Source: Paludibaculum fermentans (GTDB taxonomy: Bacteria; Acidobacteriota; Terriglobia; Bryobacterales; Bryobacteraceae). From it: a stretch of DNA of 64,000 nt. Made by a program: the position numbers and the translations under genes. Location of the stretch: positions 3,906,001 to 3,970,000 of the forward strand of contig NZ_CP063849.1 in NCBI RefSeq assembly GCF_015277775.1. Direction: 5' to 3'. The notes under the pieces are model-generated. The model saw only the letters and a program-made list of their open reading frames with translations. It was not told the origin of the DNA and ran no database searches. This document shows, in pieces, positions 12,733 through 43,594 of this stretch (positions are counted from its first letter, which is position 1; each line of letters begins with the position of its first letter).

Positions 12733-13401
12733 TTACGGCGTCCCCGCCGGATAGCCCACTGTCTGCACAAACAGGATCTGCTGATCCCCACGCAGCTTTA
12801 AGGTCTCGGCAAGGCTCTTCGCATCCGGGATGGTCGCCCGGAACCACGCGCCGAGCCCCTCCGAGGCCGCGAACAGATAGACGTTCTGGCCGATAAACCC
12901 GGCGTCCACCGCCGCGAAGGCAGGTGCGCCGCCCCCGGCCTTGGCTGCGTCTGCGACATAGAGAATCGTCACGGCCGCCTTCGCCGCGGCCTCCGGACCA
13001 GTCCGCGCACGAATGTCCCCCTGAGCCACCATCCGCAAACGGTGCGGTTCCGCGTCATAGACATACACGCCGTCGGACAGCGCAAGGTGAAGGTCAATCT
13101 CCTGCCGGTTCCGGGCGGAAGGCGCCGTCCGGCCCAAGCCCGCCTTCTGCGATTGCGTCCGGTTCACGCCAAAGGCTGCCCACAGCAGGTCGGAAAGCGT
13201 CTGCGGTGGCAGCGTGCGATCCGTATACAGCCGGATCGTCTGCCGTTCCGCCAGCGCCCGCATCAGCGGCTTGCCGGCCTCGGTGCGCGGTTTCGGCAGC
13301 ATCACGACACCGGACTGGGCCAGGCAGCCCGCCCCTGCGAACAGGACCGCCAGTACCGCGATGGCCGCCGCCCGCCGGGTTTTCTGGTATTGAGACCTCA
13401 T
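12733..13401 (-). CDS. SagB/ThcOx-type nitroreductase-like oxidoreductase, exported
   Basis: This 222-aa protein has a signal sequence ending CLAQS, then a compact nitroreductase fold: RQTIRLYTDRTLPPQTLSDLLWAAFGVNR binds the FMN phosphate region, and GFIGQNVYLFAASEGLGAW is the family's helix core. This group is FMN-dependent and often of unknown substrate outside peptide cyclodehydratase clusters; no such cluster is present. GAGC at the leader might act as a weak lipobox, but cleavage after AQS is as likely. It is downstream of, but not obviously cotranscribed with, the lipid operon. Confidence 0.85.
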   Translation of the reverse strand: MRSQYQKTRRAAAIAVLAVLFAGAGCLAQSGVVMLPKPRTEAGKPLMRALAERQTIRLYTDRTLPPQTLSDLLWAAFGVNRTQSQKAGLGRTAPSARNRQEIDLHLALSDGVYVYDAEPHRLRMVAQGDIRARTGPEAAAKAAVTILYVADAAKAGGGAPAFAAVDAGFIGQNVYLFAASEGLGAWFRATIPDAKSLAETLKLRGDQQILFVQTVGYPAGTP

Positions 13402-13509: not shown

Positions 13510-14448
13510 CTACGGTGTGAAGAAGAAGCGCGTCAGGTGGAAGAAGATCGGAGCCGAGAAGGCCACGGAATCCAACCGGTCCAGCATCCCGCCGTGCCCT
13601 TCAATCAGGTGGCCCCAGTCCTTCACACCGCGATCGCGCTTGATGGCCGACATGACGAGCCCGCCGAGAAAGCCCATCATCGTCACGACGAAGGCCATGC
13701 CCGCCGCCTGCCACCACTGAAACGGCGTCAGCTTCCACAGGCACGCGCCCAACACCGTGGCGCTCAGCACCCCGCCGATCAGCCCTTCCACGGTCTTGGA
13801 AGGAGACAACTCCGGCGCCACCAGATGGCGGCCGAACAACTTCCCCCAGATGTACTGAAGTACATCACTGGACTGCACCACGATCAACAGGAAGACGATT
13901 AGCAGCGCATCGCGCCCCGCGTAGCCCGGGATGTGCAGCGTCAGCAGAGCCGGCACATGCGAGATGCAATAAACGGTGATCATCAACCCCCACTGCGTCT
14001 CCGCCGTCCGGGCCAGGAAGTTTCTCGGATCGCCGAAGACCACCGACGCAATCGGCAGCACGAGGAACCCATACACGGGGATGAGCACGGCAAAGAACCC
14101 GAACCAGTCCACGGTTGCCAGCCAATACTGCATCGGCAGCACCACGAAGAAGCTCATGAACAATGCGATGTGATCCGCGCGGTGCGTCGGCGTCAGGGTG
14201 ATGAATTCGCGCAGCGCGGCAAACGACACGAATGCGAACAGCAACGTCACGGCCAGGGGGCCCGCCAGAAACGCCGCGGCCAGGACAAAGATCATCACCC
14301 ACCACGCGTTGATGCGCGCGTTGAGATTGTCCAGCACGGCATTTGGCCCCGGCCGCGCCCGCTTGCGCAGAATGAACGAAGTCAGGCTCGCCACGGTCAG
14401 CACACCCACCAGGACAGAGAGCGTGACCATTACTTCCGGCGTGTTCAT
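13510..14448 (-). CDS. ynbB: Phosphatidate cytidylyltransferase (CdsA/YnbB-like)
   Basis: This 312-aa polytopic membrane enzyme makes CDP-diacylglycerol from phosphatidate and CTP. About eight hydrophobic segments precede the C-terminal CDS signature, visible as SPSKTVEGLIGG and DRGVKDWGHLIEGHGGMLDR (about residues 215-298). Its ATG overlaps the stop of the acyltransferase gene (14445-14448). As the last gene of a minus-strand operon matching E. coli ynbABCD in content, it should supply the CDP-DAG used by the YnbA-like transferase at 18610-19245. Confidence 0.92.
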   Translation of the reverse strand: MNTPEVMVTLSVLVGVLTVASLTSFILRKRARPGPNAVLDNLNARINAWWVMIFVLAAAFLAGPLAVTLLFAFVSFAALREFITLTPTHRADHIALFMSFFVVLPMQYWLATVDWFGFFAVLIPVYGFLVLPIASVVFGDPRNFLARTAETQWGLMITVYCISHVPALLTLHIPGYAGRDALLIVFLLIVVQSSDVLQYIWGKLFGRHLVAPELSPSKTVEGLIGGVLSATVLGACLWKLTPFQWWQAAGMAFVVTMMGFLGGLVMSAIKRDRGVKDWGHLIEGHGGMLDRLDSVAFSAPIFFHLTRFFFTP

Positions 14449-15059
14449 GCGTCCCCCAACTCGACCAGCGCTCGCCTCAGGCGCTCCAGGAACTCCATCT
14501 TCCCTTCGTTCTCACCTAACTTCATCGGCGCTCCAAAGGCAACCGAGCACAGCAGCGGCAACGGCAGCAGCGTCCCCTTTGGCATCACCCGATGCGCGTT
14601 ATCGATCCACACCGGCACCAGTTCCAGCTCCCCGTAAGCCAGCGCCAACTGAAACACGCCGGATTTAAATGGCTGCACCGCTCCGCCCGTCCCGCGCGTG
14701 CCCTCCGGAAACAGCAGCAGCGAATCCCCCTCGTCCAGCGCGGCGCACATCGCCGTCAGCGGGTTATGCTCCCGCTCCACCTTGCCCCTCGCAATCAGCA
14801 CTCCCCGGAACACCTGGTGGATCAGGAACTTCCTCATCCGCCCCCTGTTCCAATAGTCGTCCGCCGCCACAGGCCTCACACGGCGTCTCATCCGAGGCGG
14901 CAGGACAGACCAGACGAGCACAAAATCCAGGTGGCTGGCGTGGTTGGCGAAATACAACCGTTGCGACTCACTCGGCGCACACCCCAACCAGCGGCCCTGC
15001 ACACCCGTCATCAGCCGCGTCGCACCCGTAATCAGCGCCCCCGCGAGCTCAGCCAGCAT
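14445..15059 (-). CDS. Lysophospholipid/1-acylglycerol-3-phosphate acyltransferase (PlsC-like)
   Basis: This 204-aa acyltransferase shows motif I NHASHLD (His40-x4-Asp45) and motif III FPEGTRG (117-123), the catalytic and phosphate-binding signatures of the PlsC family. It overlaps the 142-aa membrane gene by 11 bp and the cytidylyltransferase by 4 bp. It would make phosphatidate, the substrate of the next enzyme in the operon. E. coli ynbABCD, as I recall it, lacks such a gene, so this is an extension of the system. Confidence 0.92.
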   Translation of the reverse strand: MLAELAGALITGATRLMTGVQGRWLGCAPSESQRLYFANHASHLDFVLVWSVLPPRMRRRVRPVAADDYWNRGRMRKFLIHQVFRGVLIARGKVEREHNPLTAMCAALDEGDSLLLFPEGTRGTGGAVQPFKSGVFQLALAYGELELVPVWIDNAHRVMPKGTLLPLPLLCSVAFGAPMKLGENEGKMEFLERLRRALVELGDA

Positions 15060-15477
15060 CCGGCCTCCAGGCCTGCAGCACCAGGCCTGCCGCCAGCGCC
15101 GCGAACTGGACCGCCGCCACCACGATCAGCCGGATCCACAGCCGCAGGGCGCCCCGGCTCCGCTCTTCCATCGACCGCTCACGCGCTGGCTGGCCCACTC
15201 CTCTCGCCCGCAGCCACTCATCCAACGAGCGGCCACCGTCTTCGGGCTTCTCGGCCAGGTCCCGGAACAACCCCGCGTCAATCGACACGCGTAAGCCCAA
15301 ATAAACCGCAACCAGCCAGAGAACGGCGGAGGCTGCGAACCACACCCGCCCCGCGCCCGGCCGCCCCAGCAGCAGGCCAACCCCGGCGATCACCGCCGCG
15401 CAGTTGCTCGCATTCGACACCACCTGGCCGGACCGCAGAAAACTCGCCGTCACCTTCCCATCGAACTCCAGGGTCAC
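15049..15477 (-). CDS. Small polytopic membrane protein in the lipid operon, unknown
   Basis: This 142-aa protein starts at GTG 15477, which overlaps the stop of the PAP2/phosphatase gene (GTGA, 15474-15477). Hydrophobic segments lie near residues 20-35, 43-61 and 112-133, with a charged loop (RDLAEKPEDGGRSLDEWLRARG) between. It ends inside the acyltransferase start. No family is recognised. Its fixed place between a lipid phosphatase and an acyltransferase suggests a subunit, scaffold or lipid-handling role. Confidence 0.75.
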   Translation of the reverse strand: MTLEFDGKVTASFLRSGQVVSNASNCAAVIAGVGLLLGRPGAGRVWFAASAVLWLVAVYLGLRVSIDAGLFRDLAEKPEDGGRSLDEWLRARGVGQPARERSMEERSRGALRLWIRLIVVAAVQFAALAAGLVLQAWRPDAG

Positions 15478-16835
15478 CGCGAGGCCCTCCCCTTGGCCCA
15501 CACTGCCAGCGCCTGCCTGTGCGCGGCCCCCAGCAGAATGACCGGCCGCCGGATTCTCACCTGTGCGATCGCTTCGTCCACCGACGCCGCACGCCCGGTC
15601 GCAATCAGCCACGCCGCCATGGCTGTGGCGCTTCGGGAGTACCCCAGCGCGCAGCACACCAGCGTGGGCCGAGCCGCTGCAAATGCCTCAATCGCGTCCA
15701 CCGCTGCATCCAGTTGATCCGCTCCAGGAGCCATCAGGTCCAGCATCGGAACACTTCGATACTCGACGCCCCGTCCCGTGAAGGGCAGTTCAGCCGTGAC
15801 ATCCACCACTGAAGCCATACCCCTGGCCGTGAGCTCGCCCGGAGTCGGAAACCGCCCCAGCCACACGCCCTCTACAATTTCGTTCGCAGGCATCTGGCCG
15901 CGAGTGAACCACCGCGAGCTCAACCAGGCCAAAGCGATATACGGCGCCAACAGGCTCATCGCCGCTGGAGCCATTCTCCCTCCCGACTTGCCAAACAGCC
16001 AGGGTTGCCCGGACCAGTAGATCCCGGCCACCAGCACCAGCGCCGCTGCCAGCCACGCAAGAATCCACCCGCCCCCACCGATACGATGCGCGGCATACGC
16101 GCAAAGCAGCCCAGCCGTCACATACGCCATACCCAGCGGAAACCGCTGCTGGTCACCCGACCGCGCATGCCTTGGCGCGATCTCCTGCTCGGGAAACAAC
16201 GCCATGGCCACCAGTCCCACCCACAATCCCGCCGGCAGGTCGATGAAGTGGTGCTGATACGTCGTCAATGTCGAAACAGCCATCAGCACAAACCAGAGCC
16301 GAAGCAGCCACATCGTGACGCCGCTGAAGTGCCGCGCATATCGCGCCCACAGCACCGCAATCAGCGCGATGTGCAGCGAAGGCGCCTGGTTGAACGGCTT
16401 ATCGAAACTCATCAGTGCATCAAACAACTGGCCGAACAGCCCCTCTGCTGCGGGGCGCTCGAATCCGAATCGCAGCGGCGCCAGCAGGAAGCCGGCCACG
16501 CACAGCACCTGCACCGCGATCAACCGGCTGACGTGCGTCCGCAACTCGGCCCGCGTACGGCATAGAAACACCGACACCGCATAGAAGAGGTCTGTCGACC
16601 AGTAAGGGATGATCGTCCACGCCAGGAACGGGATCCTGTGCTCCCACGCGAACGCCACCTCCGGCACAGCCCGGCGCAGTCCCGTCACCCAGTTCGCGAA
16701 CCCGTAACTCAGGAAGAACAACGGCCCCAGCGCGGCCAGCCAAAGCAGGGCCGGCAGCCAGGGCCGGGATTCAGCAGAACTCGTTTCAAAGGGGCCGGGT
16801 TCGGCGGATCGGGCCGCGACTTCGGGACTACTCAA
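15474..16835 (-). CDS. ynbD: PAP2 lipid phosphatase fused to dual-specificity phosphatase (YnbD-like)
   Basis: This 453-aa fusion has an N-terminal membrane PAP2 half with APSLH (151-155) and YQHHFIDLPAG (193-203), then about 120 residues of membrane helices, and a C-terminal dual-specificity phosphatase domain with the C-x5-R loop CALGYSR (Cys395, Arg401). E. coli YnbD has the same order. The product would dephosphorylate a lipid intermediate, for example a phosphatidylglycerol-phosphate-like molecule made by the operon. Its ATG overlaps the ynbC-like stop at 16832-16835. Confidence 0.9.
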   Translation of the reverse strand: MSSPEVAARSAEPGPFETSSAESRPWLPALLWLAALGPLFFLSYGFANWVTGLRRAVPEVAFAWEHRIPFLAWTIIPYWSTDLFYAVSVFLCRTRAELRTHVSRLIAVQVLCVAGFLLAPLRFGFERPAAEGLFGQLFDALMSFDKPFNQAPSLHIALIAVLWARYARHFSGVTMWLLRLWFVLMAVSTLTTYQHHFIDLPAGLWVGLVAMALFPEQEIAPRHARSGDQQRFPLGMAYVTAGLLCAYAAHRIGGGGWILAWLAAALVLVAGIYWSGQPWLFGKSGGRMAPAAMSLLAPYIALAWLSSRWFTRGQMPANEIVEGVWLGRFPTPGELTARGMASVVDVTAELPFTGRGVEYRSVPMLDLMAPGADQLDAAVDAIEAFAAARPTLVCCALGYSRSATAMAAWLIATGRAASVDEAIAQVRIRRPVILLGAAHRQALAVWAKGRASR

Positions 16836-18600
16836 TCACCCATCCTTTGGGCGGCCGAGACCGTGAAGATCCCCCATTCGTCCGAGAGTTGTTCGGTCTT
16901 GCGGAAACCCGCCGCCGCCACCAGTTCATCCATTTCCACCTGGGTCCGGCGCCGCATGATCCAAGGCCGGTGATTGCGGTGGCTCGGCAGGGTACGCGCG
17001 ATCATTTCCAGTTGCGGATGCCAGGGTTGCCCCGTGTAGATCAGGAACCCTCCTGGAGCGATCGCCTCCGCCAACCCGGCCAGCGACTCGCGGATCGGTC
17101 CGTTCTCGGGAAACAACTCATACAACCCGGAGACGATCCCCAGTGTCGGCCGCGGCGTCATCGCCGCCACACTGCCCCGATCGAATGCATCGCCTTGCTC
17201 AAACTGCGCAATCCCGTCCAGACCCTTCTGCCGGATTAGTTCCCTACCCTGCCTGACGTTGATCTCGCTGTAATCGCGCAGCAGAATATGCTCCGGCTTC
17301 GCCTCCCCCCCTCAATCGCCTCCAGCACATACCGCCCATGCCCCGCCGCGATATCGGCGATCCGCACCGGTTGCCCGGCGGCCTGCAGCGCCGCAATCGC
17401 TCCGCGCAGCAGTTGTTCAATATGCGCCTTCCTCACGCGGATGCCGCGCCACCCGATCGCGTTCAAGTAGAACCAGTCGATCAACTTGCCCAACGGTGTG
17501 ATGCCGGAGGCCTTGTTGCGGTAGATGTAGTCCAGCGTGCTGCCGGAGTCGAACCCCGTCTCCAGCCCCAACCGGATGCCGTCCGAGAGCCGTCCGCCGG
17601 TCTTCATGCCGAACCGGGTCATCCCAAAATTCAGCGCCTTCGGATGCAGCGCCGGCAGCGGCTTGCTCAGCCGGTCGAACTCGTCTTTCGTATACCCCGT
17701 CTTGTCCGCCTCCAGCAGCGAAGCCCGCGGCGGCGCTTCGGCGAAGCACTTCTGCAGGAACCCGCGTGCCTTCGCAATCGCCGGAGCCCGATCCCGCTCG
17801 CCCAGGGTGTCGTGATAGAAGCCCTCGAAAACATGCACCTCTTTCACCTTCGACCCCAGCCGTTCAAAGAACTGGTGCTGCGGCTTGTGGTGCACGACGA
17901 AGTCGGCGCCCGAGATCAGGATCTGCGTCGGCACCTGGATCGCCGCGGCGTCTTCAATCAGCCGGTCCGCCGTGCTGTACAGCGCCAGCAGGATGTTCAC
18001 CGAGATCGGCCGCCGGATCAGCGGGTCCGCTTTATACGAAGCAATCCGTTCGGGATCGTGCGTCAACGCGCTGGGCTTCACATAGGAATTGACGTGGAAG
18101 TTGCCGAACAACTGATGAAACAGCCCCAGCGCCGGGCGCGCCAGCGGCACATAGAGCTTCACGCTGAAAGCAGGGGAAGCCAACACCATGCACCGGATCG
18201 GCGGGGCATAATCGTGCACCCACGCCGCGGCCAGCACACTGCCCACGCTCTGCCCCAGCAGCGCAATGTCTTCCATGGCGATCGCGAACTCGCCGCAAAT
18301 GTGCCGTACAAACACATCCACGTCCTTGACCAGGGTGCCCATCGTCGGGACGTGCCCGTTCGCCGGCGTACTCGCAGCGGACTCGACTGACCGCCCATGC
18401 CCGCGAGCGTCCCACGCGAACATCGCCGTCCCAGGCAGGTCCAGTTCGTCCACCACGTGCTGCAACCGGCCCGAATGCTCGTGGCCTCGATGAAATAAAA
18501 CTACGGCTTCCTTGGCTGGTCCCTGTAAGGACGGCCAGTAGCGGTAGAACAGCCGCGTACCATCACTGGTAGTGAAATAGCGCTCTTCCGGAATACGCAT
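16832..18600 (-). pseudogene. ynbC: Alpha/beta hydrolase-methyltransferase fusion (YnbC-like), frameshifted at a C7 tract
   Basis: Two consecutive frames together encode one YnbC-like protein. 18600 down to about 17305 holds an alpha/beta hydrolase (nucleophile in LLGQSVGS) and the start of a SAM methyltransferase (RIADIAAGHGRYVLEAIEGG). The frame then breaks at seven Cs (17305-17311, plus strand) and runs to a stop at 17236. With one more G on the coding strand, translation continues into the rest of the methyltransferase (GIVSGLYELFPENG) to 16832, giving about 589 residues, close to the roughly 585 of E. coli YnbC. It may be a sequencing indel, true mutation, transcriptional slippage or phase variation. 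The stop overlaps ynbD. Confidence 0.85.
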
Positions 18601-18609
18601 AAGGTCTGA

Positions 18610-19245
18610 CTACGAAACGCCCTTCTCCTCCTGGGCGGCTTTCTTTTCACCGAGCCCGCCCAATACTCGATTCACGATGGTAACTGCCAGCAGCAAGGCA
18701 AGCAACCGGGGAAAGCCCCACCCCAACCAGCCCGGAACAACGCCGCCGGCCCCAATCCATAGAGCCAGCGCGCCAAACACAAAGGCCCGGTCGCTCTTGC
18801 CCATCGGCCCGTCATAACGCCGGCCCGCGCCGGTCATCACCGCGACCGTCCCGGCCATCTCGGAAAGCGCCGAGAGCCAGATCACGCCGCCTATCCAAAG
18901 CGCCTCAAATTCCGGCAAATAAGCAAACGGCAGCAACAGAAAACCATCCGAAATTACATCCGCCAGTTCATTCAGATACGCGCCCAAATCCGACTTCTGC
19001 CCGAACTCCCGGGCCAGCATTCCATCGACGGCGTTCAGTGCCATGCGTACAAACAGAAACCCGGGCACCACCAGGAACAGGGCCCGATCCTGAATGCGAG
19101 CCGTCAACAGCAGCCCCAGCCCGACGGAAAGCAGGCAAGCGGCGACGGTGACGTGGTTGGCCGTAACGCCAGAGCGGGCCAGGAATCGTGCGAGCGGACG
19201 AAGCAAACCTTGAAAACGAGGCTTCAGCGAATAAATGCTCGGCAC
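18610..19245 (-). CDS. ynbA: CDP-alcohol phosphatidyltransferase (YnbA-like)
   Basis: This 211-aa membrane enzyme shows the CDP-alcohol transferase motif NAVDGMLARE...GAYLNELADVISD at about residues 71-100. The first and third aspartates of the canonical D-D-D-D set are Asn here, as I recall for E. coli YnbA, which would make this a subfamily feature. It starts at GTG 19245, the first gene of the operon, and ends 9 bp before ynbC. It would transfer a phosphatidyl group from CDP-DAG to an unknown alcohol acceptor. Confidence 0.9.
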   Translation of the reverse strand: MPSIYSLKPRFQGLLRPLARFLARSGVTANHVTVAACLLSVGLGLLLTARIQDRALFLVVPGFLFVRMALNAVDGMLAREFGQKSDLGAYLNELADVISDGFLLLPFAYLPEFEALWIGGVIWLSALSEMAGTVAVMTGAGRRYDGPMGKSDRAFVFGALALWIGAGGVVPGWLGWGFPRLLALLLAVTIVNRVLGGLGEKKAAQEEKGVS

Positions 19246-19745: not shown

Positions 19746-21998
19746 TCAGCGCTTGGCTCGCTGGGCATGCCATTCGCTGGTCGCGGCATTGGGCATGACG
19801 CCCCAGGCGTTGATGTCGATAGTCCCCTTCAACGCCTCTTTGCCCAGCAGATTGCCCTGGTAGTCAGCGGTGGAGCGGTCTTCCGCCTTCGCGCGCCAGG
19901 TCAGCACACCATCCTTATAGGTGGCAATCCCCGTACTGCCATAGCGCTGGCCTTCCTTGTCGCGGTACTCCATCGAGAAGTCATACTTTCCTTCCTCCTG
20001 TGCCCGCTTCGTCAGCACGAACGAGAAGGGATTCGTCTCCACGTTCATCTTGATTGAGGCCGCAGCCGCCCCGCGCAGGTCCGCTTCGCTGCGATCCGGC
20101 AGAAACGCCCGCAGGACGATGACAACCAGGTCCTCCACGTGCTTCCGGAAAACCTCCGTGCCCCGCACCGTCATCTCTCCGTTCCAGGTCCCGCTCAGGT
20201 CGTCATCTCCATACAGAATCCGCACCCTCTTGAAATCGATATACTGCGCCTTACCGTCGGCATCCACCTTGTAGTAATAGAAGCCGAGGTTATTGACACC
20301 CTTGTCCAGACTGAAGTTGTAGTAGTATTCGCCCCGCCCATCGAACGCCCCGTTGGCCAACAAGGTGGTGTCCTTGAACAGATCGACCCGGTACTCCGCC
20401 GCTCCCGTCGTATAGGGAAACTTGACCTCGAACCGGAGCATCCCTTTCAACCCCGCACCCGGCAGCATCGTAGTGACCTCATCGGTCTTAATCACCTTCG
20501 GGACTTCCGGCCACTTCTTGTCCGCGCCCTCCTGGATCAGGTACCGCACCTTCCACTTGGGAAACTTGTCATTGCCGATGGTTCCCGCGGCGATCTCCGC
20601 ATACCGCGCGCCAACCTTCCCCCAATCGGCTATCGCCGTCTTGCCGATGTAGAGCAGGATCGGGAAGCTGATGCCGTTGCCCTTGTCGATCTCGGCTCTG
20701 TTGAGGCCAGAGTTGTAGGGCTGCAGTTCACCGTTCGCGAGATTGATTCTACGGTTCTCGTTGCCGTGGTAGTTTGGGTCGGCGATGTACAACCCGCTGG
20801 CATCCGCTTTGTAGACGACCATCGCGTGGCCCGCTTCCACGGGCTGCCCCTTCGCATCGGTCGTCTGCCCCCAGATCTCGATGTACTGCGGTTCTCCCGT
20901 CAGTTGAATCGAATAGGCAAAGGCAAACCACGTCAGGCCGGTAGGGAAGCCGTTGATCTTCCGCACAATCCTGCGGCTGAGGCTGTCCCAATCGAGTTCG
21001 CTCTGAACCATGGAGGCGAAGCGGTAGCCCCACGAGTCGTCCTCCTGCAGTTGGATCGTGCCCATGCCGTAGTCATTGTTGTCATAGCGGCCGTACAGCG
21101 CCCGTTCCCCGGCGGCCTGCTTCTTCTCGAGGTAGTACCACATCGAGGTAATCGACTGGCCCGCGCAGTGCCCGGCCGGTGCCAGCCACGAGCCGAAGTT
21201 CGTGAACTGCCAGTCGTCGACACCTGGCAGGTAGCCGCTGGCGGCAGGCAACCCCCGAACAATCTCCGCCTTCTTCGCCTTACTGATCACGAGATCCGAG
21301 AAATGCCTGGTGAGAATCGTGATCGACTGGGCATCCTCTCCCACCAGCGGGAGTCCTTCCAGCTTCCCCGTCTTGCGGTCGTAGTAGAACCCCAGCGCAA
21401 ACTCGTCCCGTGCGATGCTCACGGGGATCTTCACCGCCATCGGGTCGTTCGAGTACACATGACCGTTGTCGATCGTGATCAGCGGAGTGGCCGGATGAAA
21501 CAACGGGCCCAACTGATGACTGGTGATCTCTGTCGCCTGGATCCGGAAGGGAAGGTCCTTGCCATACGCCTCGGCGCTCACGCTCACGCTCATCCCGTTC
21601 AACGGGGAACCCGGCTTGCCGATCGTGATCGAGCCGCCAGTGGAGGGCACGGTTGCCGACGCAAGGGTCGCCGCTGAGCCCAGCCCCATGTTGCCGCTGT
21701 CTTTGTACTTCAGCCAGAGAACCAGGCCGCCGATCAGCAGCACAGGAATGAGAATCAGCGTGCCCAGGCAGCCGAGGCATCCAAACCTCCGCTGTCTTTT
21801 TCCAGGCGGGACGACTGCAGCAGGCGGCGCCTGCGACGGCCATAGGAAACCAGCCTGCGCGGCCGGAACCCAATTCGGTGAGCCTTCGGCCCAAACCATG
21901 TCGGCAGGCGACAATCTACCCTGCGCGATCATGTCCTGCATCGCCTGCCGGTCGTATGGACCGTACTGTTGTCCGTCCCGGACCAGGTACCAGTTCAT
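19746..21998 (-). CDS. GYF_2-domain membrane protein with papain-like cysteine peptidase domain
   Basis: This 750-aa protein begins with a GYF_2 domain (WYLVRDGQQYGPYD, residues 3-16, to about 55), then a basic stretch and one transmembrane helix (about 76-97). The external part contains a plausible papain-fold triad: Cys278 in GHCAGQS, His391 in AGHAMVVYK and Asp407/Asn409 in IADPNYHG. Further beta-rich regions follow to the C-terminus. ATG 21998 is chosen because the GYF_2 domain begins there and a GGAGG lies upstream; the frame extends 30 residues further. Substrate unknown; the peptidase call is inferred from motif order only. Confidence 0.72.
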   Translation of the reverse strand: MNWYLVRDGQQYGPYDRQAMQDMIAQGRLSPADMVWAEGSPNWVPAAQAGFLWPSQAPPAAVVPPGKRQRRFGCLGCLGTLILIPVLLIGGLVLWLKYKDSGNMGLGSAATLASATVPSTGGSITIGKPGSPLNGMSVSVSAEAYGKDLPFRIQATEITSHQLGPLFHPATPLITIDNGHVYSNDPMAVKIPVSIARDEFALGFYYDRKTGKLEGLPLVGEDAQSITILTRHFSDLVISKAKKAEIVRGLPAASGYLPGVDDWQFTNFGSWLAPAGHCAGQSITSMWYYLEKKQAAGERALYGRYDNNDYGMGTIQLQEDDSWGYRFASMVQSELDWDSLSRRIVRKINGFPTGLTWFAFAYSIQLTGEPQYIEIWGQTTDAKGQPVEAGHAMVVYKADASGLYIADPNYHGNENRRINLANGELQPYNSGLNRAEIDKGNGISFPILLYIGKTAIADWGKVGARYAEIAAGTIGNDKFPKWKVRYLIQEGADKKWPEVPKVIKTDEVTTMLPGAGLKGMLRFEVKFPYTTGAAEYRVDLFKDTTLLANGAFDGRGEYYYNFSLDKGVNNLGFYYYKVDADGKAQYIDFKRVRILYGDDDLSGTWNGEMTVRGTEVFRKHVEDLVVIVLRAFLPDRSEADLRGAAAASIKMNVETNPFSFVLTKRAQEEGKYDFSMEYRDKEGQRYGSTGIATYKDGVLTWRAKAEDRSTADYQGNLLGKEALKGTIDINAWGVMPNAATSEWHAQRAKR

Positions 21999-22177
21999 CG
22001 AACTCAACCTCCCGGCTGCGGCCATCCACCCCATGCGACGCCAGTCGCCAAGTTCCGCCCCGTGCGGTGCGCGGAACTGATGCCGCAAGACAGCAGTTTA
22101 GTTCTATCGGATCTGAAACGGTGAAATAAACACCAGCCCGGATTCCCCGAGGCGGTCCCGCCGGAGCCGGAAAGCCT

Positions 22178-37692: not shown

Positions 37693-39303
37693 TTACGCGT
37701 CATCTTCGGGGAAGATGATGCAGGCCTTAATGCCAGCTTTCTCCTCGAGATAGTAGAGCAGCCCGGATCCATCAATCAATTCGATTGGCTTCCCCTTGAT
37801 GAACTCATAAGCATCGACACCATAGTGGCTGGTTGCCACGAGGATTCCCTTGTTTGCCCCCTCATGGCTCATCGTTCCGAACAGATCACGCACAGCGGAA
37901 ACTCCCACAGTGTTTCGATACCGTTTTGCTTGGATCACGACTTTGCCACCCACCAGGGGCCGAGTGTCAAACGCGACTACATCGACGCCACCGTCGCGGG
38001 AGGATCGTGTTTGCTTGCTATCAAGCCCCATTTTGGAGAAGAGGTTTCCGACCAGTTGCTCGAACTCGAAGGGTGTAAGGTCCATGAGGTTCGGGCGGGA
38101 TTCGAGATCCGCGAGCACGTCTGTGCCTTCGACAAACCTCCGGTCCACCATGTCGAACTCGATCAGTGGTTTCACCGGGCGGAGGTCCGCAGCTTGCGGC
38201 GACACTTGCGCTCCAAGGTTGCGAAGGCATGCCCGCTTGTCGATCCTGGCGAGATCTATCTCTTCGAAGTTCTCTTTCGTGGCTCGAACGGAGATCAGGT
38301 ACGGAGTTATGTCCTTGCCAGTGGAAGGATCGACGGCTTGAACAAAGCCGTTGAATACGACAATCGAGAGGTGACCGCCCTGGTCTGCTTCGAATACCTC
38401 ATGAATCGTGCGCAGGGTAACAGCGGCAATCACATCCTGGTAGATTTCCTTCACTTCGGCGGTCTTGCGCGGCTTCTCCTCGATCGAGTCCTTGGTCTTC
38501 ATGTAACGGTACTCCGCAACCGGCGGAATCACACTGAGGGCGGGCAACTCGTAATCGATCACCAACTGCTTGCATTCAGGGTCATAGGCCAAGCGGAACC
38601 GTTGCGGGAACCCCTCCGGATAGGAGGAGCGCTCCAAGACCATGGAACAATAGGTTCTGACCGCGCTAGATTCGCCCGAATCGTAGGCCCGAATCAAGGC
38701 GTCGACCTCAGAGTTGCGTTGGCGGATCCCGGCAAGCCGCTTCGCGTTCTTCTGCTCATGTTCGATCGCTAACCTGGCTATCGTTGCCTTTCGTTCTTCC
38801 TCCGCGGCGATCCGCTGCCGTGTAGCCTCATCGAACCGGGATTCCGCTTCCCGCAACTCAAGCTCATACCGCTGGTGCCGCGACAGAAACCGTTCCAGGA
38901 ATGTAACCGGGCGGACCCGGAGCATAAAATCCTCCCGCTTCGGGAGGGATTTGCCTTCAAGCAGTTCTGGGGGAGGGGCGAATGGAACAGTCTTCTCAGT
39001 AGTTCGTAGGGACGAAAAATCGAGCGTGTCGTCGACTTCGAGCGTATCCTCAAGGATCGTTCGAAGGGCGCAGACCAAGTCTTCGACTTCGCCGGACTTC
39101 TCTTCGGCCTCGGCTGCGCGATCCAGCGCATACTGCTGGCGCTCGACTTTGTCGAGTTGCGCACTGAGCCGCAGCTGTTCACGTTGGTAGCGAAGTTGTT
39201 CCCGTGCTTGCCGCTGACGGGTTGCCTCGGCGATCCGTTGCTGACGTGCGGATTCTCTTGCGACTTGCCCCAATGCGGCCAAAAAACCACTTCTGCGCGC
39301 CAT
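37693..39303 (-). CDS. Mrr-type restriction endonuclease with long coiled coils
   Basis: This 536-aa protein has two long N-terminal coiled coils (about residues 10-70 and 150-210), a middle domain of unknown type and a C-terminal Mrr/PD-(D/E)XK nuclease domain. The nuclease shows LTPFEFEQLVGNLF, SRDGGVDVVAFD and VVIQAKRY, the catalytic Asp and Q-x-K signature. GGAGGAG precedes ATG 39303. Mrr-like enzymes cut methylated or foreign DNA; the coiled coils may tether it to a partner. Part of the defence island. Confidence 0.87.
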   Translation of the reverse strand: MARRSGFLAALGQVARESARQQRIAEATRQRQAREQLRYQREQLRLSAQLDKVERQQYALDRAAEAEEKSGEVEDLVCALRTILEDTLEVDDTLDFSSLRTTEKTVPFAPPPELLEGKSLPKREDFMLRVRPVTFLERFLSRHQRYELELREAESRFDEATRQRIAAEEERKATIARLAIEHEQKNAKRLAGIRQRNSEVDALIRAYDSGESSAVRTYCSMVLERSSYPEGFPQRFRLAYDPECKQLVIDYELPALSVIPPVAEYRYMKTKDSIEEKPRKTAEVKEIYQDVIAAVTLRTIHEVFEADQGGHLSIVVFNGFVQAVDPSTGKDITPYLISVRATKENFEEIDLARIDKRACLRNLGAQVSPQAADLRPVKPLIEFDMVDRRFVEGTDVLADLESRPNLMDLTPFEFEQLVGNLFSKMGLDSKQTRSSRDGGVDVVAFDTRPLVGGKVVIQAKRYRNTVGVSAVRDLFGTMSHEGANKGILVATSHYGVDAYEFIKGKPIELIDGSGLLYYLEEKAGIKACIIFPEDDA

Positions 39304-39359
39304 TATCTCCTCCGACCGAGAGAATAATCATATCCTTGGTGCCAGTTGCTATCTTCGAT

Positions 39360-40412
39360 TTAAGCATCTGGCGGCTCGTCCGCCGCATCGAAATTCCCCG
39401 CCGTGTGCCAATCCGTTCGGTGCTCCGTTTTCACCCCGCATCCTGCGGTCCTCAGACGGTCCGCAAGGCCCTGTCGCCTGCGGAGCTCGTTCGAAATATA
39501 CAGTACGTTCCGCCCGACGACATCGCTGAATGGGCGGGTTCGCCCGAGAAGCACCAGTATCGTCCTTTCAGGATACTTACCAAAGGCCATCCCCGCCTCA
39601 AAGATCACATTGGGCCGAGCCTGCGGGGTCGACTCTCTTTCTTCCGGGGAATCGTGGGGCTCAATATACCGCGTGCCGAGCCGGGCCACGTCATCGCCAG
39701 TAATGAGGACGACGACAGCTTGGGCGGCTGCAAATGCGTGATCGAGCACTTCGCCTGTATATGGCGATCCTTGGCCGGTCAGAGCGAGAGCTTCGCCCCA
39801 CTCCATCGGTTCCAATCCTATCGCCCGCAAGAACGTGAACATCGCATCGCGGGCGATGAGGTTGCGTCCATGAACAACCCACACCTTGCCCTTGTCTCTG
39901 GCTTCCATCTTTACCATGCTTTCTTCTTTGCTGACGGCTTGAAGCGCGTGTTCGCATTTGAGCATTTCGATCTCTCTTCGGGCGTGCGCCTTGAGCGTGG
40001 TGGCGTCCAATTCACTTTTCGGGCGAAGGGCATCGACAGCAACATGAAAGCCGAGACGGCTGAGGTGTTGAGGAATGGAGGCAAGTACGCGGTCGATCGT
40101 TGAGTAAGCTGAGTCCCGAAGGCGATTGAACTCTTCTTCAGAACCCAATTCCGGCACAGATTGCAAAGTGGCGCGCCGGAGTTCCATCTGTTTGTCCAAG
40201 ATTCGCTTCGCCCGATCCTGATGGATTGCTGCAATTCGCCCGGCGAACTGTCCGGATTGCAGTGTACCCCGGGCCGCAGCGGCTCTCACGGCCTGCTGCT
40301 CATCACGCCGAGATTCCTCGTTGATCGCTTCCGTTGCCTTCGACCAAGCGAGTTTTTCGAGTTCCCGCGCGTGGGTCACCCTGTGTGCGTCGCTTCTGTT
40401 CGTCGAAACCAT
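39360..40412 (-). CDS. TIR-like (PF10137-type) nucleotide-binding defence protein
   Basis: This 350-aa protein has an N-terminal coiled coil (about 1-150) and a C-terminal TIR-like domain with KVWVVHGRNLIARDAMFTFL, GQGSPYTGEVLDHAFAAAQA, RPNVIFEAGMAFGKYPERT and DRLRTAGCGV. The domain is used as effector in cyclic-nucleotide defence systems (CBASS/Pycsar); here no cyclase is adjacent. A minus-strand GATAAT lies 7 nt before ATG 40412, so this may also be leaderless. NAD depletion on infection is the likely role. Confidence 0.82.
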   Translation of the reverse strand: MVSTNRSDAHRVTHARELEKLAWSKATEAINEESRRDEQQAVRAAAARGTLQSGQFAGRIAAIHQDRAKRILDKQMELRRATLQSVPELGSEEEFNRLRDSAYSTIDRVLASIPQHLSRLGFHVAVDALRPKSELDATTLKAHARREIEMLKCEHALQAVSKEESMVKMEARDKGKVWVVHGRNLIARDAMFTFLRAIGLEPMEWGEALALTGQGSPYTGEVLDHAFAAAQAVVVLITGDDVARLGTRYIEPHDSPEERESTPQARPNVIFEAGMAFGKYPERTILVLLGRTRPFSDVVGRNVLYISNELRRRQGLADRLRTAGCGVKTEHRTDWHTAGNFDAADEPPDA

Positions 40413-40481
40413 TTTCCGATTATCTCAGAAGGCCATTCGGCCTCGATGCCCCCGTCCTGGGTTTCTTAGATAGTAGTCTGC

Positions 40482-41510
40482 TTAATCATTGCGACTCTTG
40501 AATCTCGTCTGTGAGTTGAGTCTATCTGCCACAATCAGAACACGTTCGTCCTTGATCACGCCTCGCAAGCGGGTTGCCGCATAGAGCGGCCACCACTGCA
40601 ATGTCGTCGGGTCGAATCGATATACAAGCTTCTCAGGTCCGAATGGGCGGAGGGCGATGAGAAGGGAATGCGCACTAGAAGCGGCCTCGTCAATCTTCGC
40701 GGCAGCTGTCCGCAACACGACACGATCTCGTGATGGCACAATGAGTTCCACTCGACAGCCCCCTTCCACGCATTCGAATTCAAAAAGAGCTTCCTTTTCT
40801 AATCGGCTGAACGCTCCGAATACCTTGTCCCTGAGCCATGAGGAAAGCGCGAAAGCCGTGTCTGCGGCGTGATCACCAAGCCGTTCAGAAACTTTCTTTG
40901 CGAACGGACTGCTTGCGAGCAGCCACAGTGAGGTCGACAGGGCAAGAATCGCAATTGAGTCAGCGCTCTTCCTGCGAGCGACTCCTGGGCGCGCAGCAAC
41001 CTCGACTGGCCTTTCTTGCAGGAGTTCGTCGATCATTGATTTCGGAATCTCGTGAGAATTGTAGACAAGTGTAATTGTTCCATCGCGGCTTTTGTCGATG
41101 GGATCTGATGAGCTTAGTCCGGTTGGGCACTTCTCGGGAATGCATCCAAGGGATGTAAAGGTGGGGTAAGTAGATTGGTCGTAGAAACCAAATACACCAG
41201 CGACGAAGTATAACTGTCGTTCCGGCGCATAAAAAGTTCTTGCGGTCAATACGCGACCGAGCGGCATAATTAGCGGATTGTGTTCATGCATGACCCAAAG
41301 TGATTGCCGTTGGATTGTCTCAGCCATGTCAGTTAAGCACTCGGGACTGAAGCGCTCATTCTGAAGATCAATTCCGCTTGTAGCAAGTACAGCACCTTGA
41401 ACTGCGACAAACGTTTCATCCGGAAAGCGCTTGTATTGATCGAAGGTTGTAGCGGTGTCCGCTATGAATTGGCCGGCCTCTGGGGTCTCGTCTATCAGAG
41501 TTGTACTCAT
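40482..41510 (-). CDS. Unknown 342-aa protein with one membrane segment (defence-island gene 1)
   Basis: No family is recognised with confidence. Residues 30-105 (AVQGAVLATSGIDLQNERFS, LWVMHEHNPLIMPLGRVL) weakly resemble the fold of HK97-type prohead proteases. A hydrophobic segment sits near 187-203 (SIAILALSTSLWLLASSPF) and a soluble C-terminal domain follows. A minus-strand TAAACT lies 11 nt before ATG 41510. It is on the same strand as the TIR-like gene 69 bp downstream and the 209-aa gene 206 bp upstream, suggesting one module. Confidence 0.65.
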   Translation of the reverse strand: MSTTLIDETPEAGQFIADTATTFDQYKRFPDETFVAVQGAVLATSGIDLQNERFSPECLTDMAETIQRQSLWVMHEHNPLIMPLGRVLTARTFYAPERQLYFVAGVFGFYDQSTYPTFTSLGCIPEKCPTGLSSSDPIDKSRDGTITLVYNSHEIPKSMIDELLQERPVEVAARPGVARRKSADSIAILALSTSLWLLASSPFAKKVSERLGDHAADTAFALSSWLRDKVFGAFSRLEKEALFEFECVEGGCRVELIVPSRDRVVLRTAAAKIDEAASSAHSLLIALRPFGPEKLVYRFDPTTLQWWPLYAATRLRGVIKDERVLIVADRLNSQTRFKSRND

Positions 41511-41716
41511 GCTGCTGGGGAGTTTAGCATGATGGGCGCCCTCGTTCAGCCATCCAGATTGCTGCCTCTGCCAGTAGAGGCCGATCCAGGAATTGCCTCA
41601 GCGACGCAATCGTTGAGTATCGGCTGAGAATGCTGGTTCACAGGAAGCAGTCGTCCATTTGAACCAGCCATCAAAGTTGAGCCTAAACCGAAGACGTCCT
41701 GTTCGCAGGCGTCACA

Positions 41717-42346
41717 CTATGTCAGTTCTGACGGAGCCTTTCCCTGGACTGGATCCAAGAACACAAATAGGTTGTTACTTGCATCGTAGGTTACCAGAAT
41801 AGTTCGCGCGACCCGGCGGGCAGCGCCGAGGCGGGCTTCGGATGCCGGATCAAGGTTGCCAGAGTAGTACTTCTGAAGAAAATCAAAGAAGAGAGCGATG
41901 GCTGTATTGTAATCGAGTGCGGACATCTCGTCTGGGAACAATAACTTGAAATGTAGGCCTGGGCCGGCCTCTGCGAGAAGTGAGATCCCCAGTGAATACT
42001 TGGCTGCTTCGAGAGGGATTTTCCCAGCCGTGCCAACAGCAGTTATCTTGATGAGTCGTTTCTTCCCGAAGAATACGGGCCAAAGCGAGGCAAGGCCCAG
42101 CTGGAGAGCCGAATAATGGTTCTTGCCTGCTTCTTTTAGAAACCCATCGAAATATGATTTGCCGACCCAAATAAAAAGCGCAGTCGGTATTAGCCAATGG
42201 ATGCCAGCGTAAGGACCAGATGGGGGGCGAGGTTCTATGGAAATGGAGAGTCCTGACGCCTCGACGCTATCAATCAATGGCTGAATGTAAGCCATAGAGA
42301 GGGGGGGCTGGTAGCTGACGAGGAGGTCCGGTGGTGTCTGCTTCAT
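41717..42346 (-). CDS. Unknown 209-aa protein with amphipathic/membrane segment (defence-island gene 2)
   Basis: No family recognised. A mildly hydrophobic stretch (GIHWLIPTALFIWVGKSYFD, about 48-67) is followed by GFLKEAGKNHYSALQLGLA, the form of membrane-associating effectors. The remainder is alpha/beta with LLFPDEMSALDYNTAIALFF. Codon use and GC are lower than the surrounding chromosome. Located directly upstream of the 342-aa gene on the same strand; an effector-like role is a guess. Confidence 0.65.
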   Translation of the reverse strand: MKQTPPDLLVSYQPPLSMAYIQPLIDSVEASGLSISIEPRPPSGPYAGIHWLIPTALFIWVGKSYFDGFLKEAGKNHYSALQLGLASLWPVFFGKKRLIKITAVGTAGKIPLEAAKYSLGISLLAEAGPGLHFKLLFPDEMSALDYNTAIALFFDFLQKYYSGNLDPASEARLGAARRVARTILVTYDASNNLFVFLDPVQGKAPSELT

Positions 42347-42568
42347 GACTCATCGCCTCTGACAGATGCTCATATCTTCCCTCATTCCGGCATCATAGCA
42401 GGGTCATGAGCGTTTAAGCCTGTGAACGCCGGTCTGACTCCGGAACCATTTCCCGCCTTCTGAGGCTTCGATGACCTCAATCCAATTCATCAGGGGATCT
42501 GGATGGCCTGACGTGTGTCCGCTCGAAGGAATCTGAACAGCATAGACCTGCTGCCCGTGACACTCCTT

Positions 42569-43594
42569 CTAATAGAGGGACAGACGTTCCGTGGATTCCT
42601 GAAGAGAGACGGCGATGTCCTGGAACCACTCGTGTTCACGGAGTTCGGGGTACTGGCTAACGAGTAGATCGAATTGCTGTTGTTGATCCTGGGCATGCGT
42701 GAGAGCGAGGGTCGCGGCCCTGACGGCTTGGGTGTGGTCTTGATCTTTGAGGAGCAGTGGGATGGCGATATGGATTTTGTCGACGATGGATGGGTCCTCA
42801 TAGAGGAGGACGTCGAGGCACTCCCCGAGCGTTCCAGGGCCATAGTCACGGTGGTCAACGGCACGGATCATGTGGACGAGCTCTTCGGGCGACCACCGGA
42901 ATGAAGGTAGGAGCTGTTTTTGGATGTCCGGCGCGATCCAGTTTTCCTTGGTCCAGAAGATGTTTGGGTGCGAGCCCACGTGGGACAAGAGCCAGATTGT
43001 GCGTCGAAGTGGTTCCGGCTGGAGGTCCATGATGAATCGACGGAGGATTAGTAGGTACTTGGGCTCTGACCGGCTGAGCGCCCATGCATCGTAAACCGCG
43101 CCGGTCTGAAACGGGTCGAGGGCAAGGAGGTTCAGGACGAGATCGCTCGTCCCGCGCGGTCCATATGCGCGTACCGAACCCGTGAACGTTCCATGGAGAG
43201 AAAGCTCATCGAGGATTCGCCCGGCTGAGACGGGCACGCTCCCGGTAATCTGCTCAGGGTGCGCACGCAAATAGCCGGTTAGGTCCACCCAGCGAAGTTT
43301 GTTATCGACGGGGTCGTGCACGATGCCGAAGACCGGGACCGTGGATCGTCGCCACAGCTCAGTGTGGTCGGCCAACGGTATCAGGTACTCTCCATTCTTT
43401 TTCCGGTATGACGCGCCCGCCTTGATCTGGAGCGCGACGCACAACGGCGTAATACCAGCCTTGTCCACAAGGTCAACATAGGCGTCCTTCCCGATATCCT
43501 GCTGCTGGTCGACCTCCTGAAACCGGCAACCGTGGTGCTCGAAGAACGAGCGAACAGAATTGACACCATCTCTACTCGTGATCCGCGACCGCAT
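42569..43594 (-). CDS. DUF4365-type PD-(D/E)XK nuclease-fold protein
   Basis: This 341-aa protein starts with the DUF4365 (PF14280-type) domain: FFEHHGCRFQEVDQQQDIGK then DAYVDLVDKAG and VALQIKAGASYRK give the D-x(n)-Q-x-K nuclease signature. The C-terminal 180 residues are an uncharacterised helical region. These proteins occur in defence islands, alone or with TIR or ATPase partners. It is divergent from the membrane module at 43784. Confidence 0.82.
   Translation of the reverse strand: MRSRITSRDGVNSVRSFFEHHGCRFQEVDQQQDIGKDAYVDLVDKAGITPLCVALQIKAGASYRKKNGEYLIPLADHTELWRRSTVPVFGIVHDPVDNKLRWVDLTGYLRAHPEQITGSVPVSAGRILDELSLHGTFTGSVRAYGPRGTSDLVLNLLALDPFQTGAVYDAWALSRSEPKYLLILRRFIMDLQPEPLRRTIWLLSHVGSHPNIFWTKENWIAPDIQKQLLPSFRWSPEELVHMIRAVDHRDYGPGTLGECLDVLLYEDPSIVDKIHIAIPLLLKDQDHTQAVRAATLALTHAQDQQQQFDLLVSQYPELREHEWFQDIAVSLQESTERLSLY

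Follow-up and report, generated by a model that had tools for sequence, protein, structure and literature searches.

A 64,000-nucleotide stretch of the Paludibaculum fermentans genome (RefSeq assembly GCF_015277775.1, contig NZ_CP063849.1, positions 3,906,001 to 3,970,000; hereafter the window) carries six gene-sized coding regions, A, C, D, E, P, and B, on the minus strand at window positions 13510-19245. They encode a YnbA-like CDP-alcohol phosphatidyltransferase homolog (A), a YnbC-like hydrolase-methyltransferase (C), a YnbD-like protein in which a membrane PAP2 domain is fused to a dual-specificity phosphatase (D), a small helical protein of 142 amino acids (aa) (E), a PlsC-like acyltransferase (P), and a CdsA/YnbB-like phosphatidate cytidylyltransferase (B). 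The functions of the protein families of A, B, C, D, and P are established. The operon is common to many unrelated bacteria and is modular, consisting of an A-B-P core, C, and a D-E pair. With a probability of roughly one half, these genes constitute a conserved accessory phospholipid pathway that would run via CDP-diacylglycerol (CDP-DAG) to a phosphatidyl-alcohol or phosphatidyl-alcohol-phosphate, trimmed by C and D-E.

Adjacent genes overlap or nearly touch. A and C are separated by 9 nt, while C (in its second frame) and D, D and E, and P and B each overlap by 4 nt, and E and P by 11 nt; this tight spacing suggests a single transcript with coupled translation. Gene order, strand, and family names given in a first-pass annotation of the window agree with these coordinates and with matches to PF01066, PF12146 plus PF12147, DSPc PF00782, PF01553, and PF01148. 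A contig scan with D returned 310 encoding loci, the best 80 of which were kept; in this set D is present by construction and Pseudomonas dominates. The order A-C-D-E-P-B was found in 70 of the 80 loci. The remainder comprised A-C-D-P-B in three (L007, L008, and L058, the last of which does hold an E match that the position filter missed), C-D-E in three Methylococcales, C-D in one (L015), and three single-locus orders, namely A-B-P-C-D-E in Hymenobacter, C-D-E-P-B at a contig end, and L075, scored as A-C-D-E-B-P, whose "P" is a weak 27% match inside a large protein and was not counted as PlsC. An E profile match was present in 77 of the 80 loci, 15 of which contributed to the profile. The closest operon relative, in an Acidobacteria metagenome-assembled genome (L006), shows 76-90% identity over the genes, and the six-gene arrangement recurs in several phyla, far beyond chance. 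The first-pass annotation had staked its proposal on synteny of PlsC and the 142-aa gene with the ynb genes, and in most relatives they are indeed syntenic. No further gene recurs beside the set across phyla in the 18 non-Pseudomonas loci compared, the window included and Pseudomonas loci left out; the all-against-all comparison of their 130 neighboring open reading frames (ORFs) of at least 110 aa gave four families common to all three Methylococcales loci, four pairs that link two loci each, and a single family of E homologs that had escaped masking (L009, L021, L028).

Co-occurrence was examined by profile searches of one draw of 249 Pseudomonadota genomes, with thresholds of E below 1e-45 for a strong A match and below 1e-130 for full-length D. 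Strong A matches were found in 26 genomes (plus four weaker places), C in 19, E in 18, and full-length D in 18; seven further genomes matched only the second half of D. D and E share an identical set of 18 genomes, nested in the 19 C genomes, which are in turn nested in the 26 A genomes (the lists for A, C, and E were compared computationally and that for D by eye). E adjoins D by coordinates in all 18 genomes with full-length D, and the only C genome without E (G569) also lacks D. Fisher tests gave p = 1.7e-26 for the pairing of E and C and 4.8e-23 for that of C and A, values that ignore shared ancestry and are therefore overstated. Seven A genomes have no C: A-B-P stands together in five of them, a sixth contains A and B fragments, and the seventh carries a degenerate A on its own. 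The modules are also physically separable: C-D-E lies at one place and A-B-P at another in two Methylococcales (L021, L024), A is located elsewhere than C-D-E in a third (L028), and C-D and A-B-P are at separate places in the genome of L015. In the 2-Mb genome G503 (L131, L132), A-C-P-B and D-E are about 43 kb apart, with D and E still adjacent; a TGA lies inside the A match of the search there. Because A-B-P occurs without C-D-E in five genomes, PlsC is no mere extension of the ynb genes, as it had been described, but the usual partner of YnbA/YnbB.

Within the Acidobacteriota the set is rare, with strong PF12147 matches in four of 296 other genomes (one draw) and two of 40 relatives. In a tree of A, the window pairs with L006 (support 100/99), and this pair then groups with Myxococcota and Rokubacteria (90/90) rather than with the four other Acidobacteriota (L009, L020, L035, L117), a placement that hints at horizontal transfer.

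Homologs of YnbA, YnbB, YnbC, and YnbD stand side by side in the window, together with P and E. The E. coli K-12 operon ynbABCD (NC_000913.3, 1477621-1482201) has the order A-B-C-D with an intact C, whereas the window has A-C-D-E-P-B with C frameshifted; identities to A, B, C, and D are 47, 39, 55/68 (two parts of C), and 39%. These values agree with the first-pass correspondence of four genes to ynbA, C, D, and B. That annotation also listed CdsA as an addition, but B is the YnbB counterpart, and only PlsC and the 142-aa gene exceed ynbABCD. E. coli ynb looks like a reduced form of the unit. Our literature searches, judged by titles and the beginnings of abstracts and with most subscription journals outside their reach, returned no paper on the six-gene unit or the D-E pair. 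The earlier statement that the product lipid is undefined agrees with the literature found, with one exception: the accessible parts of two papers (PMC6362211, PMC7018664) propose that E. coli YnbB has a backup role in making the glycolipid MPIase. As reported in the portion available of PMC2435150, ynbC transposon insertions raised polyphosphate in one strain background but Keio deletions did not, which we take as non-specific stress. The gene ynbA is also listed in a c-di-GMP screen table and a radiation transcriptome, both seen in excerpt, on which we place no weight.

The CDP-alcohol phosphatidyltransferase (CDP-AP) signature, D1xxD2GxxAR...GxxxD3xxxD4, is described as containing eight absolutely conserved residues, of which D1-D3 bind metal and D4 is the base (PMC4634129, available sections); a later structure has two metals held by all four aspartates (PMC6506517, likewise in part). 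A matches PF01066 at 37.8 bits against a cut-off of 22, and its signature is NxxDGxxAR x8 GxxxNxxxD, with Asn at D1 and D3 in all 78 homologs (75 loci, L002, the window, and E. coli YnbA, which shares this signature). The canonical signature occurs in none of 76 A copies. On account of the two Asn residues, we term A a divergent N-type homolog, not a canonical CDP-AP member. The alignment to solved enzymes confirms the register, and the other five CDP-APs of the P. fermentans genome are canonical, with Asp at both places. A and the related A' group described below fall on one side of these five in a tree, with support of only 84/84 and long branches. The N-type pattern was found in 15 further copies (17 matches, less L118, a duplicate of L002, and the E. 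coli copy L086). Another five A matches are off-pattern: the A' group (L126-L129), located with P and B, has both Asn residues but no longer the signature Arg; in the lone L124, D1 and Arg are gone and the D3 position is still Asn. A second A-related copy in the Xanthomonas maliensis locus L066 (8332-11523) has both Asn residues and Arg; this second N-type CDP-AP and an open frame of about 490 aa lie between E and P. LNE (the second Asn followed by Glu) is present in 76/76 A copies, and D2, G, AR, G, D4, and the acceptor-side loop GPxGKSDRA are likewise invariant in all 76, which argues against simple decay of A. A literature search for an asparagine CDP-AP variant found no paper, most subscription journals being outside its reach.

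By profile, the nearest solved relatives of A are phosphatidylinositol-phosphate synthases (6h53, 1.3e-11), which take a phosphorylated acceptor and need a later phosphatase (PMC4634129, same sections). The invariant KSDR and R193 of A correspond to the acceptor-phosphate residues of these synthases, RxxR and a C-terminal Arg; for RxxR, this correspondence needs a one-residue shift of the HMMER alignment. A thus shares the Lys/Arg counterparts with phosphatidylinositol- and archaetidylinositol-phosphate synthases but differs from them by Asn at D1 and D3, and it scores far below the NCBIfam equivalog cut-offs for the two (42.8 against 170 bits and 62.6 against 180 bits, respectively). By analogy, the phosphorylated acceptor of these relatives and the presence of a phosphatase in the operon favor a phosphatidyl-alcohol-phosphate intermediate. 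Inositol as a universal acceptor is disfavored because an inositol-phosphate synthase gene (PF07994, 2.2e-100) is present here but the E. coli control, which has ynb, gave no match.

P has the HX4D and FPEGTR motifs of PlsC-type acyltransferases, which are kept in 76/76 copies (L075 left out). It lies below the TIGR00530 cut-off for 1-acylglycerol-3-phosphate acyltransferase (50 against 103 bits), so its acceptor is unsure. B belongs to the CdsA/YnbB family (PF01148, 228 bits), and the CdsA C-terminal signature (P or E before GHGG) is found in 73 of 77 B homologs, including that of the window. EGHGG occurs in 72 of the 77 operon CdsA paralogs, and E. coli YnbB has PGHGG. The P. fermentans genome has one more PF01148 gene besides B. 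Like the CdsA and YnbB proteins of CDP-DAG and MPIase precursor synthesis, B is a PF01148 homolog, but it is tied to PlsC and an N-type CDP-AP. According to the consulted part of a review (PMC7018664), in vitro synthesis of CDP-DAG has been seen with E. coli YnbB.

D matches DSPc, while its PAP2_3 match is below the Pfam gathering score (19.4 against 27); its place in the PAP2 superfamily follows from motifs C2 (PSxH, 80/81 copies) and C3 (Hx3D, 81/81), seen here as PSLH (80/81) and HHFID (81/81). The Cx5R loop of the phosphatase is kept in 81/81. In a model with a mean predicted local distance difference test score (pLDDT) of 86.9, the C-terminal half matches folds of dual-specificity phosphatases (DUSPs), with PTPMT1 among many ties, and the membrane half was barely probed by these searches. 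D thus shares the fold and Cx5R with eukaryotic PTPMT1/DUSP phosphatases but is fused to a PAP2 membrane domain. Mean net charges of loops L1 to L8 are -0.7, +0.4, -0.6, +2.1, 0, +0.6, +0.2, and +1.9, small differences that weakly suggest a PAP2 site outside and a phosphatase inside.

The partner gene E had been called new in the first-pass annotation. This stands insofar as E belongs to no Pfam or NCBIfam family, but E is a regular member of the locus, adjoining D in all 18 genomes and at 77 of the 80 loci, with exceptions in L007, L008, L015, and, outside these sets, E. coli. A search of 16 E members against Pfam gave seven weak matches, one member each (best E 0.004), the E profile had no match in the PDB at E <= 1, and structure comparison gave no meaningful fold match for the E model, which has a mean pLDDT of 92.3 and helices at residues 3-15, 17-37, 42-76, 83-91, and 103-136. 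R63, D67, D86, L89, R101, and R106 are conserved in the alignment, and the charged ones among them (R63, D67, D86, R101, and R106) seem to lie outside the presumed membrane spans. E may be the missing partner of YnbD.

Five of the six genes are open; the remaining one, C, had been described as a single hydrolase-methyltransferase gene but is split here by a frameshift. Its PF12147 match is divided between two frames, one covering the profile up to position 156 and the other from 156 onward, and the frames meet at a G run. C is intact in 82 of 83 homologs (80 loci, L002, E. coli, and the window), and the sole broken copy is that of the window; our script scored 81 as single-ORF and flagged C of L007, yet the latter has an intact 581-aa ORF, the match of a second query having overrun the stop codon. 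The break is either a recent mutation or an assembly error. A programmed frameshift is unsupported, since C is intact in the relatives and there is no G run in the closely related L006. The catalytic motifs of C are kept in 78 to 81 of 81 copies. Its methyltransferase domain matched generic methyltransferases only (best 5.9e-4), which gives no clue to the substrate.

From the gene content, synteny, co-occurrence, and motif conservation described above, we infer the following reactions, step order, phosphorylated acceptor, product, topology, and role of E. P would acylate lysophosphatidate to phosphatidate, which B would activate to CDP-DAG. Provided that it is active, A would transfer the phosphatidyl group to a small and probably phosphate-bearing acceptor. 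The phosphatase half of D, predicted to be cytosolic, could then take the terminal phosphate off the product, and the PAP2 half, predicted to be at the outer face, could cleave or transfer the head group once the lipid is across the membrane, with E as a dedicated small partner of D. C would methylate the head group or its precursor and/or remove an acyl chain via its hydrolase domain, both activities being predicted from its domains. The complete route to an exotic phospholipid proposed in the first-pass annotation is plausible but unproved, as the transferase lacks two of the four metal-binding aspartates. With C frameshifted, the pathway may be incomplete in P. fermentans itself, unless the break stems from an assembly error.

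Several observations weigh against this pathway. Contrary to a perfect module rule, C stands alone within 15 kb in L116; A-B-P-C occurs without D or E within 14 kb in L117; A-C occurs without B, P, D, or E within 12 kb in L130; and A is divergent to C-D-E, without B or P within 12 kb, in L133. Despite the presence of D, the E profile found no match in L007, L008, and L015 among the 80 loci, and a hidden Markov model search limited to an 18-kb stretch of the E. coli genome found neither P nor E. In the portions available of the respective papers, E. coli YnbB was unable to stand in for CdsA ("data not shown"; PMC6362211), a ynbB knockout had no phospholipid defect (as reviewed in PMC7018664), and YnbD could not replace phosphatidylglycerol phosphate (PGP) or C55-isoprenoid pyrophosphate (C55-PP) phosphatases (PMC7413402). 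A is also without D1 and D3, and in an archaeal phosphatidylserine synthase, Ser or Asn at signature aspartates reduced or abolished activity (PMC8633023, as far as excerpted). By analogy with these mutants, A may be inactive or perform other chemistry.

If inactive, the A-type proteins could be CDP-AP relatives with a binding or scaffold role, in an operon that remodels or recycles ordinary phospholipids: C would deacylate, P reacylate, D remove phosphate, and B re-form CDP-DAG for housekeeping enzymes. The Asn residues at two of four signature aspartates in 78/78 copies, the four divergent A' copies that lack the signature Arg as well, and the five canonical CDP-APs of the same genome speak for this explanation. 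We nevertheless consider it rather unlikely, because an inactive scaffold need not keep D2, G, AR, G, D4, and GPxGKSDRA invariant in 76/76 copies, and because A is retained in more genomes than any other of the four members surveyed (26, 19, 18, and 18 of 249 genomes for A, C, E, and D; B and P were outside the survey) and stands alone with B and P in five genomes. The opposite possibility, which we raise tentatively and think somewhat doubtful, is that the N-type CDP-APs (YnbA and A', seen here alongside PlsC and a CdsA paralog) are active phosphatidyltransferases and form a class of their own whose metal centre is altered, with, for instance, one metal or a phosphate nucleophile, and that they act with the D-E pair and the YnbC fusion to produce an undescribed phospholipid in many bacteria, including E. 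coli K-12.

A different product would be a precursor of an MPIase-type pyrophosphate-linked glycolipid, a sugar-pyrophosphate-diacylglycerol formed when A, or B itself, links a sugar phosphate to the phosphatidyl group. A metal site with less negative charge might accommodate an anionic nucleophile, and in the accessible text of PMC6362211 and PMC7018664, YnbB overproduction raises MPIase and YnbB is described as dedicated to it. According to PMC6362211, however, ynbB deletion alone leaves MPIase unchanged, and phosphoglyceride-linked enterobacterial common antigen does not need ynbB (PMC8609368, in the part consulted). A also keeps the presumed base D4, and the absence of a recurrent neighbor gene in the 18 loci means that no recurrent glycosyltransferase lies beside the operon; we regard this product as improbable. 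Least probable of all is that the operon backs up phosphatidylglycerol synthesis, with D acting as a PGP phosphatase like PTPMT1, as A is far under the pgsA model cut-off (24 against 109 bits) and E. coli YnbD gave no rescue of a strain devoid of PGP phosphatases (PMC7413402, available part). The failure of YnbD with PGP and C55-PP argues for a head group other than glycerol in the accessory pathway.

The features of the operon are compiled in Table 1. A nitroreductase-family protein (window 12733-13401) is encoded on the same strand 108 nt downstream of B, and a 780-aa protein with a GYF_2 domain (19746-22088) lies upstream of the operon. The G + C content is lower (0.53-0.59) at 36-46 kb of the window, and positions 37693-43594 resemble a defence island, with an Mrr-type restriction endonuclease, a CAP12/Pycsar TIR effector, and a DUF4365 protein. 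Reading the six-gene operon as a defence system was rejected, since none of the six proteins had a PADLOC match at E <= 0.01, with the broken C of the window replaced by its intact counterpart from L006.

Table 1. Features of the six-gene operon in the P. fermentans window (9.5-Mb genome in two contigs)
Feature	Position	Strand	Evidence
A: YnbA-like CDP-alcohol phosphatidyltransferase homolog, 211 aa, GTG start	18610..19245	-	PF01066 37.8 bits; 47% identity to E. coli YnbA
C, first part: YnbC-like hydrolase domain and start of methyltransferase, 454-aa ORF, ended early by frameshift	17236..18600	-	PF12146 3e-68; PF12147 positions 2-156; 55% identity to E. coli YnbC
G run at frame break of C	17305..17311	-	Sequence; PF12147 matches adjoin in two frames
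C, second part: remaining methyltransferase domain, other frame, 157 aa open	16832..17305	-	PF12147 positions 156-309, E 2.6e-77; 68% identity to E. coli YnbC
D: YnbD-like membrane PAP2 domain fused to dual-specificity phosphatase, 453 aa, TTG start	15474..16835	-	Motifs, model, DUSP matches
E: 142-aa helical, probably membrane, protein; usual neighbor of D	15049..15477	-	Alignment, model, synteny
P: PlsC-like acyltransferase, 204 aa, HX4D and FPEGTR kept	14445..15059	-	PF01553 4e-18; motifs
B: CdsA/YnbB-like phosphatidate cytidylyltransferase, 312 aa	13510..14448	-	PF01148 2e-67; 39% identity to E. coli YnbB

E. coli K-12 holds four of these genes without an assigned product, and the comparison made here shows the full set to which they correspond. 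Every YnbA-type protein in the main set has substitutions at two of the four metal-binding aspartates. If the N-type proteins are inactive, the annotation of YnbA as a transferase is misleading; if they are active, the CDP-AP signature is not universal, and a minor bacterial phospholipid awaits identification.

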